From: Lacibacter luteus
GTDB lineage: Bacteria > Bacteroidota > Bacteroidia > Chitinophagales > Chitinophagaceae
NCBI RefSeq assembly: GCF_004118265.1
Contig: NZ_SDHW01000001.1
Coordinates: 620,001 to 684,000, forward strand
Reading direction: 5' to 3'
Length of the DNA: 64,000 nt
A program made the translations under genes and the position numbers. This document shows positions 37,538 through 42,763 of this stretch, piece by piece; the stretch's first letter is position 1; the number at the start of each line of letters is the position of its first letter. Under the pieces are notes generated by a model. It was not told the origin of the DNA. It saw nothing but the letters and a program-made list of their open reading frames with translations, and did no database searches.

Positions 37538-38344
37538 TTATTTACCCCATCCCCACTCTAAAAACTCGGGAAATGCTTTGGTCCATGTTGGCACATCATG
37601 TGCTCCATCTTCCAGTTCGAGGTATTTTATTGCATCTGCAGCATAACCTTTGCGTTTCAGTTCCATTATAAGATCCAACGCATCATCAATTGAATCGATA
37701 ATACCGTTGTTGTTGCGATCGGACTTTTCATCGAGCAATCCTGTTTGAAAAAAGAACCGCAACCACGGTGATGCTTTTCCTGCACGCACCTGGTTATGCA
37801 TAATGCGGTCTGCCTCATCGGTATAACCATTATCATACGCCTTTTGCCGCCACCACAACGAGCCGGAAAACACGCCTACTTTAGTAAACTCATGTGCATG
37901 ATTCCAAACAATATCCAACGCCATTAAACCACCGAGCGAAAAACCTGCAAATGCTTTTTCTTTAAACTGCGGAACGTTGTATTTTTTACGGAGGTAAGGG
38001 AGCAATTCGTTAAACACAAATTTTGTGTACAAATCTGCTTTGGCACCACGTCCTAAATAATCGGCCTGGCTGGCAATACCATATTCCATTTTACGATCGG
38101 TACCGCAATGTATACCCACACAAAGCAATGGTTGTATTTTTTGTTGATCGTATAAGTTTTCAAGAATATCTGTAAACGGCATTTTCAATAAATCCTGTCC
38201 GTCGTTTATAAGCAGTAAACTTATTTCGGCCGAATCAATAACGGGAGTCGGCAAATAAAAATCAACCGTTACTTCCCGTTCCAGGTACTCCGATAACAGC
38301 AGCTCCGATACAAACACAACCTGCATTAATTTCGTGTTAAGCAT
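37538..38344 (-). CDS. Alpha/beta hydrolase, esterase D/enterochelin esterase-like family
   Basis: Cytoplasmic alpha/beta hydrolase (268 aa, no signal peptide). The nucleophile elbow GFSLGG contains Ser136; IHCGTDRKMEYG and the late DGAHDVPTW supply oxyanion and catalytic His regions. The family hydrolyses esters such as enterochelin or S-formylglutathione, or acts as acyltransferase. The ATG at 38344 was chosen; a TTG at 38353 is possible but overlaps the TATTTTTG box at 38351-38358. The promoter/start sequence is nearly identical to that of the amidotransferase gene at 42666, linking this gene to the adjacent ATP-grasp/ligase cluster, from which it is divergent. Substrate unknown. Confidence 0.88.
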   Translation of the reverse strand: MLNTKLMQVVFVSELLLSEYLEREVTVDFYLPTPVIDSAEISLLLINDGQDLLKMPFTDILENLYDQQKIQPLLCVGIHCGTDRKMEYGIASQADYLGRGAKADLYTKFVFNELLPYLRKKYNVPQFKEKAFAGFSLGGLMALDIVWNHAHEFTKVGVFSGSLWWRQKAYDNGYTDEADRIMHNQVRAGKASPWLRFFFQTGLLDEKSDRNNNGIIDSIDDALDLIMELKRKGYAADAIKYLELEDGAHDVPTWTKAFPEFLEWGWGK

Positions 38345-38350
38345 AAACGT

Positions 38351-38358
38351 CAAAAATA
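38351..38358 (-). promoter_or_regulatory. Candidate -7 element of esterase gene, shared with amidotransferase gene
   Basis: Reverse strand TATTTTTG matches TAnnTTTG; the ATG follows after only 6 bases (TATTTTTGACGTTTATG). 16 of these 17 bases are the same in front of the gene starting at 42666. The spacing implies a leaderless or nearly leaderless transcript. Confidence 0.5.
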
Positions 38359-38434
38359 AGGAAATGCAGTAAAATATTTTAAAGGCAATAATTGATGTTA
38401 CAGAATTGTGTGCTATATTAATGCAGTGAACAAA

Positions 38435-38455
38435 GAACTATACAATCAATAGTTC
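38435..38455. promoter_or_regulatory. Inverted repeat in esterase/ATP-grasp intergenic region
   Basis: GAACTAT-acaatca-ATAGTTC is a perfect 7-bp inverted repeat with 7-base spacer, 28 bases before the ATP-grasp ATG, in the region between the divergent genes. The size and spacing fit a dimeric-repressor site, but no regulator gene is adjacent. Confidence 0.35.
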
Positions 38456-38483
38456 ACACATCACCTACACAAAATAAAAAAGT

Positions 38484-39437
38484 ATGAAAAAGATCGGCAT
38501 CTTACACGGAAAAGAACGCTCTTTCCCCACTGCATTTGTTGACCGTATTAACAGTAAAAACATAGCCGGTATAACAGCTGAGCCTGTTCGTATTGACAAA
38601 GTAGTGCAGGGTGTAAATAATGGTTATGCTGTTATTGTGGATCGTATTTCGCAGGATGTGCCGCATTACCGTGCTTATTTAAAAAACGAAGCCATTACGG
38701 GCACAGCTGTTATCAATAACCCATTCTGGTGGAGTGCCGATGATAAATTTTTCAACAACTGTCTGGCTACAAAAATCAATGTACCTGTTCCCAAAACAGT
38801 GATCCTTCCGTCGAAAGAACGACCAGACGATACAAGCGACGCATCGTTCAGCAACCTTGCGTACCCGATGGATTGGGAAGGCATGTTCAACTACATTGGC
38901 TTTCCGGCTTATATGAAACCATTTGCAGGAGGTGGTTGGAAGAATGTTTACAAGCTCAACAATGCTGCCGACTTTTTTGATAAGCATGCAGAAACCGGAC
39001 AGCTTGTAATGTTATTGCAGGAAGAGATTGTGTTTGAAGAATATTACCGTTGTTATTGTATTGGCCGCAAGTATGTACGTATTATGAGTTACGAACCACG
39101 TAACCCACATCATTTACGCTATGTAGCAGACTTTCAACCATCGGCAGAAAAACTGCAGATGATGACAGATATTGTATTGCGCATCAACAATTATCTTGGT
39201 TATGATTTTAATACCGTAGAACTTGCATTGCGTGATGGTGTGCCGTATGCAATTGACTTCTGTAATCCTGCACCTGATGCCGACCTTGCAAGTGTTGGGC
39301 AGGAAAATTTCGATTGGGTTGTTGAAGCTGCCGCCAATTATGCCATTGAACGTGCCTTAGAACAAAAACCGGGTGAAGACAATTTAACCTGGGGTGAATA
39401 TGTAAAACGTGGAGCGAACAAGCAATCCTTGTATTAA
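38484..39437 (+). CDS. ATP-grasp family ligase-like protein
   Basis: I infer an ATP-grasp amide or peptide ligase, 317 aa, cytoplasmic. Lys145 in AYMKPFAGGGWKNVYKL with the glycine run 149-151 looks like the phosphate-binding lysine and loop; Glu180/Glu181 in LLQEEIVF fit the adenine-contacting segment; Glu246 in NTVELALRDG plus Asp258 and Asn261 in AIDFCNPAPD fit the Mg2+-binding end of the fold. The N-terminal third (about 1-110) is the substrate-binding pre-ATP-grasp domain. The partner ligase gene begins 17 bases downstream, so both are co-transcribed. Substrates unknown; this is a fold-level call. Confidence 0.8.
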   Translation: MKKIGILHGKERSFPTAFVDRINSKNIAGITAEPVRIDKVVQGVNNGYAVIVDRISQDVPHYRAYLKNEAITGTAVINNPFWWSADDKFFNNCLATKINVPVPKTVILPSKERPDDTSDASFSNLAYPMDWEGMFNYIGFPAYMKPFAGGGWKNVYKLNNAADFFDKHAETGQLVMLLQEEIVFEEYYRCYCIGRKYVRIMSYEPRNPHHLRYVADFQPSAEKLQMMTDIVLRINNYLGYDFNTVELALRDGVPYAIDFCNPAPDADLASVGQENFDWVVEAAANYAIERALEQKPGEDNLTWGEYVKRGANKQSLY

Positions 39438-39454
39438 AAAATTAATATTAACGA

Positions 39455-40567
39455 ATGGCTAGCATCAACTATAAACAGTTTACAATAGGTGTTGAAGAAG
39501 AGTACATGGTTTTTGATCCTGTAACAAGAGAATTAAAAAGCCATGAGCAGAAAATTGTAAGCGAAGGACAAAAAGTGATAAAGGACAAAGTGAAGGCCGA
39601 GATGCACCAGGCTGTGGTGGAAGTTGGTACAGATATTTGTCACAGTATTGAAGAAGCGTACAACGATGTTGCTTTACTGCGCAAAACCATACATGGTATT
39701 GCAGGCAATATTGGGTTAGCTGTTGGCGCAAGCGGTACACATCCGTTCAGTCATTGGCAGGACCAGCTAATTACCGATCATGTACGTTACAACCAGATCG
39801 TAAACGAATTGCAGGAAGCTGCAAGAAGCAATCTCATATTTGGTTTGCATGTACATGTAGGAATGGAGAACAGGAAGATGGCTATTCACCTGGCCAACTC
39901 TGCACGTTATTTTTTACCACATGTATATGCACTAAGTACCAACTCTCCTTTTTGGGAAGGACGCATGACGGGTTACAAATCGTTCCGCACAAAAGTGTTT
40001 GATAAGTTCCCCCGTACAGGCATTCCCGAATCGTTCGACAGTATTGAAGCATACGAAAACTATGTTGCACTGCTTATTAAAACAAACTGTATTGATAATG
40101 CAAAGAAGATCTGGTGGGACCTACGTGTACACCCCTTCTTCAACACCATTGAGTTTCGCATTTGCGATGTACCGATGACCGTAATGGAAACCATTGCGAT
40201 TACAGGCTTGTTCCAGGCTATTACAGCTAAACTGTATAAGCTGCGTAATCAGAATATGAACTTCATCCAATACCAACGGGCACTGATAAACGAAAACAAA
40301 TGGAGAGCGAGCCGCTATGGCATTGATGGTTATCTGATTGATTTTGGTAAAGAAGAAGAAACCAATACCCGTGCACTCATTTACGAATTGCTCGATTTTG
40401 TTGATGATGTTGTGGATGAGTTGGGTTGCCGTGCTGCCATCAACTACATTCCTGAAATGTTGAACAAAGGCACCGGTGCCGACAGACAGCTAAAGGTATA
40501 CGAGGATACAAAAAGTCTTCCTTCGGTTGTTGATTATATTGGTGCTGAGTTTTTGAGTGGAGTGTAA
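39455..40567 (+). CDS. Carboxylate-amine ligase, YbdK/GCS2 family
   Basis: Glutamine-synthetase-fold enzyme of the GCS2 (COG2170, YbdK) family, 370 aa, which activates a carboxylate with ATP and joins it to an amine; the E. coli protein has weak glutamate-cysteine ligase activity. The diagnostic FTIGVEEEYMVFDP (Glu14-Glu16 as metal ligands) is at the start, followed by GLHVHVGMENR, NSPFWEGRMTGYKSFR and VHPFFNTIEFRICD. Adjacent ATP-grasp and amidotransferase genes suggest a dedicated small-molecule or peptide pathway. A role in glutathione-like thiol synthesis is possible but no glutathione synthetase is seen. Ends 6 bases before the convergent gene at 40574. Confidence 0.92.
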   Translation: MASINYKQFTIGVEEEYMVFDPVTRELKSHEQKIVSEGQKVIKDKVKAEMHQAVVEVGTDICHSIEEAYNDVALLRKTIHGIAGNIGLAVGASGTHPFSHWQDQLITDHVRYNQIVNELQEAARSNLIFGLHVHVGMENRKMAIHLANSARYFLPHVYALSTNSPFWEGRMTGYKSFRTKVFDKFPRTGIPESFDSIEAYENYVALLIKTNCIDNAKKIWWDLRVHPFFNTIEFRICDVPMTVMETIAITGLFQAITAKLYKLRNQNMNFIQYQRALINENKWRASRYGIDGYLIDFGKEEETNTRALIYELLDFVDDVVDELGCRAAINYIPEMLNKGTGADRQLKVYEDTKSLPSVVDYIGAEFLSGV

Positions 40568-40573
40568 TCCTCG

Positions 40574-41773
40574 TCAGACGGAACGTTCTACAAACGCCAC
40601 ACTACCTCCAACCCAGGTTTTGTCTTTGTTATAACGCACACCAATCATTTTCCCTTTGCTCATACGTGCAAGGTTAATTGCTGCATGCGGACGCTCATCG
40701 CCATCAGGCCATACATACATGATCCGGATTTCCACTTTTGCAGGATCGTCGGGTGTTTCCACCACATCGGCATATTGCACTTTCTTTTGCAGAATATAAT
40801 TTTCAGGATCATTAATTGCATCAATATCTTCCTGCGTAACATCAATAATTACACCTTGCCCGGCAAATGAAAACAACGGTTTCAATACATACTTCGACAA
40901 ATCATCTGGCAGTTGTTTGATCTCATTCAGGAAAAATGTTTCAGGGATGTAAGGATGTTGAATAAACGGCAATGTGAATTTGCTGATGCGATAAAACCAG
41001 TTGGGATGCGGCAACCATTCCACATCAAGATCCTGCGTAATATCCACTACATCGCCCAGCTTTTCTTTATTCGCTTTCAGATCGTCGAAGATGATGCGGT
41101 TGTAAATGCGCTTTACTTCTGTTTTTACACCATCCTTCATGTAGTAAAGCTTGCGTCCTTCCTGCATCAGTTTAGTTAAACAAACAGCTTCAATACCGAT
41201 ATAATCTTTGGTGCAGGAAAAATCAATTCTTGTTTTTTGTTCTTCAGGTTTTATTTCAAGCAGAATAACATTTTCTGTTGCATGCGAACCGATGATGAGT
41301 TTTCGCAGCAACTCGATATACGTTTCTTTTGTATACCCGTTTAAGAATTGACTGTAGTTAGAAGGGATATCAAAATGCCGTTGCACTACTTCGGGATAAT
41401 ACACCTGGAAACCAAACAAGGTTGGGAAACCCTGCATTTCGATCAACTGAGGCTCCAGTTCGCCCGCTTCATTCATGCACACACCAAAATCAAATGCGAT
41501 CATGTGTGCTTGTTTGTTTTCGTTGGGTACTTTTTCTCCTGCCGGAATTGAACGTTCGGTTAACGAAAGAAAAGAAGGTTCACAAATAACATCTACAATG
41601 CGTTCGCATGCATCGATCATTTTTTGTGCAAAAGCTTTATCTACAAACACAGGTGTTTCGCTTACACGAAATTCAATATCTCCGGGATGAAGACTGTGCA
41701 GGTCTTTTAAGAAAGCCTCATACTTTTCAACAGTAAATGCATTGTTGAATGCTTTGCGTATTGCAGGAACCAT
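40574..41773 (-). CDS. Hypothetical protein, possible circularly permuted ATP-grasp
   Basis: Unassigned 399-aa cytoplasmic protein. Asp95 and Glu112 in the region FDFGVCMNEAGELEPQLIEM resemble the metal-binding end of an ATP-grasp, but appear before the apparent nucleotide-binding lysine: KPLFSFAGQGV (Lys298) with ENYILQKKVQ (about 325-333) and VEIRIMYV. In normal ATP-grasps the order is reversed, so this looks like the permuted arrangement of glutathionylspermidine-synthase-like enzymes. A ligase function would fit the neighbourhood. It lies 53 bases downstream of the amidotransferase gene on the same strand, with a small hairpin directly before its ATG. The fold assignment is inference. Confidence 0.75.
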   Translation of the reverse strand: MVPAIRKAFNNAFTVEKYEAFLKDLHSLHPGDIEFRVSETPVFVDKAFAQKMIDACERIVDVICEPSFLSLTERSIPAGEKVPNENKQAHMIAFDFGVCMNEAGELEPQLIEMQGFPTLFGFQVYYPEVVQRHFDIPSNYSQFLNGYTKETYIELLRKLIIGSHATENVILLEIKPEEQKTRIDFSCTKDYIGIEAVCLTKLMQEGRKLYYMKDGVKTEVKRIYNRIIFDDLKANKEKLGDVVDITQDLDVEWLPHPNWFYRISKFTLPFIQHPYIPETFFLNEIKQLPDDLSKYVLKPLFSFAGQGVIIDVTQEDIDAINDPENYILQKKVQYADVVETPDDPAKVEIRIMYVWPDGDERPHAAINLARMSKGKMIGVRYNKDKTWVGGSVAFVERSV

Positions 41774-41793
41774 AGAAGATGTTTTGTCTTCTA
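41773..41793 (-). promoter_or_regulatory. Hairpin abutting the start codon of the ATP-grasp-like gene
   Basis: On the reverse strand TAGAAGA-CAAAACA-TCTTCTA is a perfect 7-bp stem whose last base is the A of the ATG start codon. It could mask the start and limit translation, or be an operator. A TACTTTTA (one mismatch to TAnnTTTG) lies just upstream, so the gene may also have its own promoter. Confidence 0.35.
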
Positions 41794-41826
41794 AAAGTAT
41801 TTGATTTTATTTAAACAGGAAAGTGT

Positions 41827-42666
41827 TTACGCTTCTACCGCATATTGAGAAAAAACAGCACTGTGTAAAAAGTTGGGAAGTATATGCGAATAAGTGAACA
41901 GAATCTTATCCGGATCTTCAAGATGTTCGATCATGCTCTTCCATTTTTCGAACCCATGATTATCGATCACGGTTTTCTTTTTGTCTTCTTTCTGCAGGTA
42001 CATGCTCATACCAATTGCATCGGCCTCGGGGTGAAACTGTGTACCGATCATGTATCGGTTAAAACGTACACCCATAATTGCACGTTCGAGCGGTATATGC
42101 GGACGTTCTTTTTCAATACACAATAAAGATGCTCCTATTTGCTTCAGGTATTTATGATCGGGCTGTATTACCTGGTAATCTCTGCTATCTACAGCATAGA
42201 ACGGATCTTTCAAGCCACTAAAAACAGCCTCTCCTTCTATGCCTTCAATAATATGAACAGGAAAAACGCCAAAGGCAGTTGATTTGCGGGCACAAACATT
42301 ACCGATCTTAAAATAACGGCAGGCTAACTGAAACGAGTGACAGATAAAAAACACCGGCTTTTTCTGATTGTTCAAGGGATTATCGTTCCAATGTTTTACA
42401 GAATCGATCCAGCTGAAAAAAACATTCTCCCATTCTGTGCCTTCGCTTTCCAATGGACTGCCGGGACCACCTGAAGAAATAAACAAATCGTACGACAGAT
42501 CGGGCACTTCGCATTTACCACGTACATCAAATTCATCCCAACTCAAATCCAGTACGTTGATGTCGGCAAAACTGTTCAGTATTTCACGAATACAACGCAT
42601 GCCCTGGTTCGCAACGCCATCATACATATCCAATATTGCAACACGTACCTGTTTTACTTCTGCCAT
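41827..42666 (-). CDS. Class I glutamine amidotransferase-like protein
   Basis: Class I amidotransferase fold, 279 aa. Cys109 in FFICHSFQLAC is the nucleophile; His212 and Glu214 in TQFHPEAD complete the triad; SSGGPGSP (64-71) is the oxyanion segment. The elbow departs from the usual G-x-C-x-G-x-Q: both glycines are replaced (F-I-C-H-S-F-Q). It presumably hydrolyses a glutamine or gamma-glutamyl amide and passes ammonia to a ligase, or removes a gamma-glutamyl group. The ATG at 42666 (MAEVKQVRVAILDMYDG) is preferred over 42711, because a TATTTTTG box lies between them, 6 bases before 42666. First gene of a pair with the ATP-grasp-like gene. Confidence 0.87.
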   Translation of the reverse strand: MAEVKQVRVAILDMYDGVANQGMRCIREILNSFADINVLDLSWDEFDVRGKCEVPDLSYDLFISSGGPGSPLESEGTEWENVFFSWIDSVKHWNDNPLNNQKKPVFFICHSFQLACRYFKIGNVCARKSTAFGVFPVHIIEGIEGEAVFSGLKDPFYAVDSRDYQVIQPDHKYLKQIGASLLCIEKERPHIPLERAIMGVRFNRYMIGTQFHPEADAIGMSMYLQKEDKKKTVIDNHGFEKWKSMIEHLEDPDKILFTYSHILPNFLHSAVFSQYAVEA

Positions 42667-42672
42667 AAACGG

Positions 42673-42680
42673 CAAAAATA
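42673..42680 (-). promoter_or_regulatory. Candidate -7 element of amidotransferase gene
   Basis: Reverse strand TATTTTTG followed 6 bases later by the ATG: TATTTTTGCCGTTTATG. The same 17 bases with one change stand in front of the esterase gene at 38344. Supports the 42666 start and predicts a leaderless mRNA. Confidence 0.5.
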
Positions 42681-42725
42681 CCGAAAAATTGATGTTTGAA
42701 CAGGCATACATCTATCCACAAATGT

Positions 42726-42763
42726 GAAAAAGCAACAGGCCGCTGATTTTCAGCGGCCTGTTG
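42726..42763 (-). terminator. Intrinsic terminator of the TPR protein gene
   Basis: CAACAGGCCGCTGA (42733-42746) and TCAGCGGCCTGTTG (42750-42763) form a perfect 14-bp stem with a 3-base loop; on the reverse strand it is followed by CTTTTTC. It lies 21 bases after the stop of the gene at 42785 and insulates the downstream amidotransferase gene. Confidence 0.85.

Follow-up and report, generated by a model that had tools for sequence, protein, structure and literature searches.

Stand-alone amide ligases that work together with hydrolases to make peptide metabolites are a known kind of bacterial system. The carboxylate-amine ligase YbdK of Escherichia coli possesses gamma-glutamyl:cysteine ligase activity, and a GCS2-related ligase family adjoins either a thiol peptidase resembling glutamine amidotransferases or a gamma-glutamyl cyclotransferase, according to PMC2588565. 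E. coli YgiC bears the RefSeq name peptide--spermidine ligase; together with YjfC it is termed a peptidylpolyamine synthetase in PMC12568646, while PMC12506659 states that YgiC is not a glutathionylspermidine synthase. In the operon encoding CP_ATPgrasp, alpha-E, transglutaminase, and Anbu, an ATP-grasp similar to glutathione (GSH) synthetase is combined with a hydrolase-fold protein (PMC6376114). Here, we consider a locus of five adjacent genes, designated EST, AG1, GCS, AG2, and GAT, in a 64,000-nucleotide stretch of the Lacibacter luteus genome (contig NZ_SDHW01000001.1, positions 620,001 to 684,000), referred to below as the window. The locus shares with the latter operon the combination of a GSH-synthetase-like ATP-grasp with a hydrolase-fold protein and differs from it in having a GCS2 ligase, a RimK-like ligase, and esterases; none of the eight window proteins scanned is an alpha-E, transglutaminase, or Anbu protein.

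The genes of this locus co-occur across Bacteroidota and often form one operon with replaceable positions. In the window, all five open reading frames (ORFs) lie where a preliminary description of this DNA had placed them. AG1 (38484..39437, + strand) encodes a RimK-like ATP-grasp ligase and is followed after 17 bases by the co-directional GCS (39455..40567, + strand), predicted to be a YbdK/GCS2-type carboxylate-amine ligase. Tail to tail with GCS, their ends being six bases apart, stands AG2 (40574..41773, − strand), a putative permuted ATP-grasp of the glutathione-synthetase and YgiC–YjfC structural class, which is co-directional with GAT (41827..42666, − strand) across a 53-base gap. GAT is a predicted hydrolase with the class I glutamine amidotransferase (GATase) fold. 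The divergent partner of AG1, EST (37538..38344, − strand), encodes a predicted alpha/beta hydrolase. We see an even chance that the five genes constitute one cytosolic small-molecule pathway, where AG1 and AG2 would form amide bonds, GCS would provide a gamma-glutamyl unit, and GAT would serve as a hydrolase.

Among 296 Bacteroidota genomes drawn, AG1 has the widest distribution (108 genomes spanning 35 family labels), followed by GCS (103), AG2 (92), and GAT (70), and all four are present together in 50. AG1 and AG2 are common to 89 genomes (Fisher p 3e-52), AG1 and GCS to 91 (p 1e-44), and AG1 and GAT to 69 (p 6e-38), these p-values being overstated by kinship among the sampled genomes. None of the 70 genomes with GAT lacks both AG2 and CPAG, a protein that can stand in the place of AG2 (see below). 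Given this co-occurrence, the genes form a system rather than chance neighbours, as had been proposed, and the persistence of the set amid varied flanks is seen across Bacteroidota. The distances among the four proteins correlate moderately (Spearman 0.47–0.68 in 33 genomes), and no conclusion was drawn from this.

Gene order was followed in 80 regions hand-picked for spread, mostly around AG1, of which six were dropped as they contained no called AG1 ORF. In the remaining 74, GCS is encoded within 6 kilobases (kb) of AG1 on the same strand in 42 loci, AG2 in 33, GAT in 31, and EST2, another small esterase of about 236 amino acids (aa), also in 31; EST lies within 6 kb of AG1 in 18. The median gaps in the four main co-directional gene pairs are as short as 10.5–46 bases. 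The recurrent full form, found in families f18, f20, f23, and f24, is an operon EST2-AG1-GCS-GAT-AG2 accompanied by the divergent EST. A second set comprised the best 80 of at least 596 matches, with titles mostly from Chitinophagaceae or unplaced Bacteroidetes; among these best 80, EST is divergent upstream of AG1 in 78 and GCS is downstream in 78, and GAT and AG2 are both within reach in 14, many of the loci being cut by contig ends. The cluster is also found in cultured type strains of Sediminibacterium, Niabella, Flavihumibacter, and Hydrotalea.

The first replaceable position is that of AG2. In eight loci, the gene behind AG1 encodes CPAG, which is about 450 aa long and has a sub-threshold match to CP_ATPgrasp_2 (8e-7 at best), and the genomes concerned lack AG2. 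When 80 genomes were searched (AG2 is present in 61 of them), CPAG, counted at 682 bits or more, was found in 15 genomes with nine family labels, none of which has AG2 (chance 6e-13, overstated by relatedness as discussed below). Not counted were a 374-bit relative in genome G174 and matches of 22–42 bits in four other genomes, all of which occur in AG2-bearing genomes and are located elsewhere. Either AG2 or CPAG is present in 104 of the 108 genomes with AG1, and the four exceptions (G045, G124, G197, and G324) carry the most divergent AG1 proteins, with 31–41% identity vs at least 50% in the rest. Sequence homology between AG2 and CPAG is weak (profile–profile (HH) probability 12%); the presumed link between them is based on the same operon place, mutual exclusion, and fold class, the latter taken for CPAG from the sub-threshold Pfam match and not from a structure model.

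The second replaceable position is that of GAT. A peptidase of the M29 family (PF02073, 2e-17) is encoded between GCS and AG2 in five loci. In 80 genomes searched, 39 of which have GAT, M29 orthologues, counted at 425 bits or more, occur in six genomes with five family labels, and GAT in none of the six (chance p 0.015, also overstated); weaker relatives in 25 further genomes were classed as other paralogues and left uncounted. In five of the six genomes, M29 occupies the operon position of GAT, which makes the exclusion stronger. The supply of ammonia by GAT, as proposed in the preliminary description, is therefore disfavoured: M29 replaces GAT in five loci, none of the 80 genomes searched has both, and metallopeptidases are not known to supply ammonia. 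If M29 does the job of GAT, this job would be amide or peptide hydrolysis, which suggests that GAT is an amidase and not an ammonia donor.

The sequence of GAT matches PF00117 (1e-8, 35.2 bits vs a cut-off of 22.8), and its Cys-His-Glu triad, as in class I GATase-fold hydrolases, is intact and invariant in 17 aligned sequences (Cys124, His227, and Glu229, counted from 42711). It differs from these enzymes in that the canonical nucleophile motif GxCxGxQ is replaced by an ICHSFQ-like one, there is no fused synthetase, and an M29 peptidase is able to take its place. Plant gamma-glutamyl peptidases are also among the closest known systems. Some neighbours provide hints consistent with a hydrolase role. 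In family f31, where GAT is apart from the operon, an M24-type metallopeptidase of about 396 aa is encoded 0.3–4 kb from GAT in five of eight loci (L233–L236 and L238; one was scanned and four were recognised by the N-terminal sequence). An amidohydrolase resembling YtcJ (PF07969 in all three proteins scanned) is found near AG2 or GAT in eight genomes of three families (L246, L104, L102, L101, L115, L103, L096, and L116) and overlaps or abuts a core gene in five of them.

GCS is clearly predicted to be a YbdK-type carboxylate-amine ligase. It matches GCS2 at 5e-59 and exceeds the cut-offs of NF010039 ‘carboxylate-amine ligase’ (518 bits vs 371) and TIGR02050 (287 bits vs 176), and its match in PDB is YbdK (1r8g, 2.5e-46). 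The metal-site motif GxExE, which reads GVEEE in the window, is kept in at least 97% of 33 genomes (G12 and E14–E16). The difference from E. coli YbdK and NF010039 lies in the linkage of GCS to a pair of ATP-grasps and a hydrolase. Of the 104 genomes that have AG1 together with AG2 or CPAG, 13 yielded no GCS. Close to the cluster, families f17, f19, and f33 encode a third ATP-grasp (PF13535 in both proteins scanned; L089:10345-11553, L146:1341-2555, L077:12136-13314, and L078:3085-4314). At E 1e-20 or better, it is present in 12 of the 13 GCS-less genomes vs 24 of 45 GCS-bearing ones (p 0.011, a post hoc comparison that leaves out the four genomes with divergent AG1, though they were searched), which is at most suggestive of a stand-in for GCS.

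EST belongs to the PF00756 esterase family (2e-24, 86.9 bits vs a cut-off of 22), and the GxSxG nucleophile, GFSLGG in the window, is present in 18 of 18 homologues. Its best NCBIfam models, the GTNG_0744 esterase and enterochelin esterase, both score far below the cut-off, and the best sensible match in PDB is the esterase 2qm0. The top PDB matches, to pentatricopeptide proteins, span about 30 residues and were taken as compositional.

Could the product be a low-molecular-weight thiol? GCS would then make gamma-glutamyl-cysteine, from which AG2 and AG1 would build an analogue of glutathione; the esterases would act like S-acyl-thiol hydrolases and GAT like a gamma-glutamyl peptidase. PF00756 includes S-formylglutathione hydrolases, and the fold of AG2 matches GSH synthetases; the cysteine ligase activity of YbdK noted above (PMC2588565) points the same way. 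However, BshA is over the cut-off in 288 of the 296 genomes, that of the window included (3 of 14 in the control set); hence, bacillithiol is probably already present, and the need for a replacement thiol is weakened. Since a GSH-like tripeptide would not require three ligases and GCS was not found in the 13 genomes mentioned, we regard a thiol product as unlikely.

AG2 has a good predicted structure, with a predicted local distance difference test (pLDDT) score of 84 and a predicted template-modelling (pTM) score of 0.86. Its fold gives 16 matches at E ≤ 0.001, with TM (query) of 0.46–0.59 and identity of 9–16%, the best being the putative glutathionylspermidine synthase 3n6x (7.8e-14). Other matches include glutathione synthetases of yeast, human, and trypanosome, as well as nematode glutathione-synthetase-like proteins, homoglutathione synthetase, Cp1B, and YjfC. 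We take the class of these matches to be the permuted ATP-grasps, so that the fold backs the assignment of AG2 to the permuted, GSH-synthetase type, in agreement with the earlier suggestion of a permuted enzyme at 40574. With PF03738 (GSP_synth), AG2 scores 12.6 bits (E 0.075) vs a gathering score of 29.3 and is not a member. YgiC alone was matched by the AG2 profile in PDB (E 0.032), and the HH alignment with the E. coli protein covers 69 columns with 38% identity and a probability of 55%, including the K-P-x-F-S loop that AG2 has in common with YgiC. AG2 stands apart from the known permuted ATP-grasps by its low identity over the fold and by the metal-binding ExN motif, which reads ExQ.

This relationship leads to another reading, in which AG1 and GCS would make a short peptide, AG2 would add a polyamine, and GAT or M29 would be an amidase arm. 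YgiC, the only sequence match of AG2 in PDB, and YjfC, a match of its fold, are known as peptide-polyamine ligases (by the RefSeq name of the former and PMC12568646). However, the sequence match with YgiC is confined to part of the ATP-binding half. As for polyamine synthesis, nspC, which represents one route only, is over the cut-off in 3 of 45 genomes with AG2 vs 1 of 35 without it, so that no link is seen. This reading leaves the esterases unexplained, and we judge polyamine conjugation to be improbable, to the same degree as a thiol.

Certain neighbours would fit salvage or detoxification, in which the ligases would conjugate an amine or acid that is toxic or has been imported, to be released later by the hydrolases. 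In three genomes of family f43 (two scanned), AG2 occurs with a sodium:solute symporter (PF00474) either in one ORF or adjacent to it. The single ORF encodes 867 aa (L231:4637-7240, genome G162); as to L232 and L244, the symporter is beside AG2 in one, and L232, which was not scanned, has two overlapping ORFs. If natural, the fusion would point to an imported solute as the substrate of AG2. The YtcJ-like amidohydrolases described above can be read in the same way, as can an ethanolamine-ammonia-lyase gene inside the region in one genome, where EutB, the large subunit (scanned), and a permease-like gene (unscanned) lie between the GAT-AG2 and GCS-AG1 halves (L116:2591-7597). However, the symporter, amidohydrolase, and lyase partners are lineage-specific, and the retention of AG1, AG2, and GCS in some genomes of about 2.0–2.8 Mb fits a core role better; salvage is accordingly rated as quite unlikely.

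AG1 has no Pfam match, and its RimK-family match (1e-5) is below the curated cut-off: with 25.1 bits against TIGR00768, whose cut-off is 143.4, it falls 118 bits short and is a relative but not a member. The match to LysX is also sub-threshold, and further profile matches are to biotin carboxylase (0.0009) and Ddl (0.004). AG1 thus resembles RimK, LysX, and ArgX in these sub-threshold matches and in the fold, and differs from RimK in its score and in its own conserved motifs NNPFWW and NPAPDAD. The predicted structure of AG1 is weak (pLDDT 63); with this model, Foldseek gives 254 matches at E ≤ 0.001, the best (1.9e-9) being to a RimK-domain ATP-grasp, and the 50 matches listed consist almost entirely of ATP-grasp ligases, among them RimK, ArgX, Ddl, and graspetide ligases. 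The ATP-grasp fold of AG1 is backed by this model, and the structure predictions and fold matches bear out the earlier view that both 38484 and 40574 encode ATP-grasps. Modification of a protein tail by AG1 in the manner of RimK, or of a precursor peptide in the manner of graspetide ligases, would accord with these best structural matches of a low-confidence model but is very unlikely, given that 77 of 117 gaps in the four main co-directional pairs do not exceed 60 bases and leave little room for a precursor gene, that no small gene is prominent among recurrent neighbours of at least 90 aa (the size from which ORFs were clustered), and that GCS, AG2, and the esterases would have no clear role.

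We favour a pathway that builds a small amide or peptide. As AG1 and AG2 or CPAG are near-invariant and GCS is missing from some genomes, the most economical reading is that AG1 and AG2 are obligatory and GCS is optional. The obligatory pair would use acyl-phosphate chemistry to form two amide bonds in succession: AG1 may lengthen a small acid by one amino acid, and AG2 may couple the carboxylate so formed with an amine or amino acid, since it is built like glutathione synthetase and the peptide-amine ligases YgiC and YjfC. GCS would contribute the optional gamma-glutamyl unit, in the manner of YbdK-type enzymes. An amide or peptide hydrolase dedicated to the pathway, GAT or M29 in its place, would serve deprotection or turnover by removing a glutamyl residue or the N-terminal one. 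The esterases EST, EST2, and EST3 would handle an ester or thioester and might process or recycle an acylated form of the product. The product would be a small glutathione-like gamma-glutamyl peptide or amide. The reactions and chemistry ascribed to all five enzymes are predictions. Tentatively, and with less confidence than we have in the shared pathway, it may be supposed that many Bacteroidota, some with genomes of about 2 Mb included, share a core metabolite that has so far escaped recognition. This would be a gamma-glutamyl peptide amide similar to glutathione, assembled by ligases of three types (RimK-like, YbdK-type, and glutathione-synthetase-type) and turned over by its own hydrolase, a ligase and the hydrolase each having been independently replaced in evolution.

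A number of observations count against the proposed pathway. Without AG1, AG2 is found in three genomes, GCS in 12, and GAT in one. Neither GAT nor an M29 orthologue was found in 33 of the 108 genomes with AG1, all 33 having been searched for both, and the 13 genomes in which GCS was not found mean that the gamma-glutamyl step is not universal. The genomes where CPAG or M29 displaces its counterpart are related (15 genomes under nine labels and six under five labels), and therefore the chance figures for both exclusions overstate. The genes are scattered in many genomes, e.g., in families f37, f39, f42, and f43, and the GAT-AG2 half is often at a distant locus in much of the family to which the window belongs. 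Scattering had been named beforehand as evidence against a system; it is real in some lineages and does not extend to the gene set as a whole, whose members co-occur. EST is near the cluster in only five of the 34 families of the fetched loci, and EST2 in 17 of 34. The membership of AG1 in the RimK family and of AG2 in GSP_synth is sub-threshold. Finally, we infer the substrate, the order of steps, the gamma-glutamyl bond, and the product.

The arrangement of the window, with its divergent and convergent pairs, is as first described, and it is a lineage-specific rearrangement of a simple operon, because the convergent layout is common in the genus of the window and elsewhere in the family GAT-AG2 is often distant. 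The GAT-AG2 half stands tail to tail with AG1-GCS in eight further genomes (G002, G006, G007, G008, G009, G013, G011 at L151, and G012 at L229). The same layout is partial at a contig end in G005 and present without a nearby EST in G004 (L227); it is not found in the stretch examined of G001 and G010, and the G003 locus ends at a contig end.

A promoter module shared by the genes had also been proposed. The 17-base sequence TATTTTTGnCGTTTATG occurs in exactly two copies in the window, at the starts of EST (TATTTTTGACGTTTATG, 38342..38358, − strand) and GAT (TATTTTTGCCGTTTATG, 42664..42680, − strand), each combining a −7-type promoter box with the start codon. When up to three mismatches are allowed, three sites are found vs 1.92 expected from shuffles; as the control covers this tolerance, it gives no chance figure for exact copies. 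The TAnnTTTG part is presumably the usual Bacteroidota promoter box. It is found upstream of 64 of 96 EST and 26 of 56 GAT homologues vs 137 of 1363 other ORFs, and AG1 homologues have it at the background level (19 of 155). Beyond the genome of the window, the only fetched locus with the whole 17-mer is that of the closest relative, G009 (L002), which has it at EST; other relatives keep the box without the 17-mer. The shared module is thus limited to the starts of EST and GAT and is mostly a generic box. The ORFs as called are 37538-38353 for EST and 41827-42711 for GAT (both − strand), and the most likely starts are predicted at ATG 38344 and ATG 42666, since both ATGs sit six bases behind the TATTTTTG box; GAT homologues also start close to ATG 42666, the position given in the preliminary description. 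In many EST and GAT homologues, the box is only a few bases before the start codon, which would mean very short or absent leaders.

A generic scan of the region for sigma-70-type promoters gave 20 sites vs 20.2 in shuffles, and a terminator scan gave six sites vs 7.1, i.e., no excess in either case. The longest of the six terminator-like sites, whose number is not above that in shuffles, is a hairpin of 14 pairs, nine of them GC (42733..42763, − strand), between the upstream TPR gene and GAT; it is likely the boundary of the GAT-AG2 unit. The flanks look ordinary: one side has a TonB-type outer-membrane protein, and the other has a TPR protein together with an enzyme of the glycogen-branching type. 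No Rfam family at the gathering score and no tRNA were found in the window. A mobile element was considered and rejected: AG1 and AG2 gave no match in 72,556 plasmid records, and no AG2 relatives were found in viral contigs. Two loci titled Williamsia sp. (L186) and Flavobacterium sp. (L210) bear Chitinophagaceae-like clusters, with AG1 identity of 79% and 77%, respectively, and are probably misnamed metagenome bins.

In the literature searched, no description of this gene set is among the matches listed, and an earlier one is possible; the amidoligase survey of Iyer et al. 2009 is said to catalogue such neighbourhoods and may contain this one. The replacements within the set are likewise absent from the matches listed, as is an assigned product. 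About a third of the sampled Bacteroidota (108 of 296) carry AG1, some small genomes included. The replacements of AG2 by CPAG and of GAT by M29 provide functional hints for large, poorly characterised enzyme families. If the proposed pathway is true, an amide metabolite retained so widely would extend what is known of central or stress metabolism in a major phylum.

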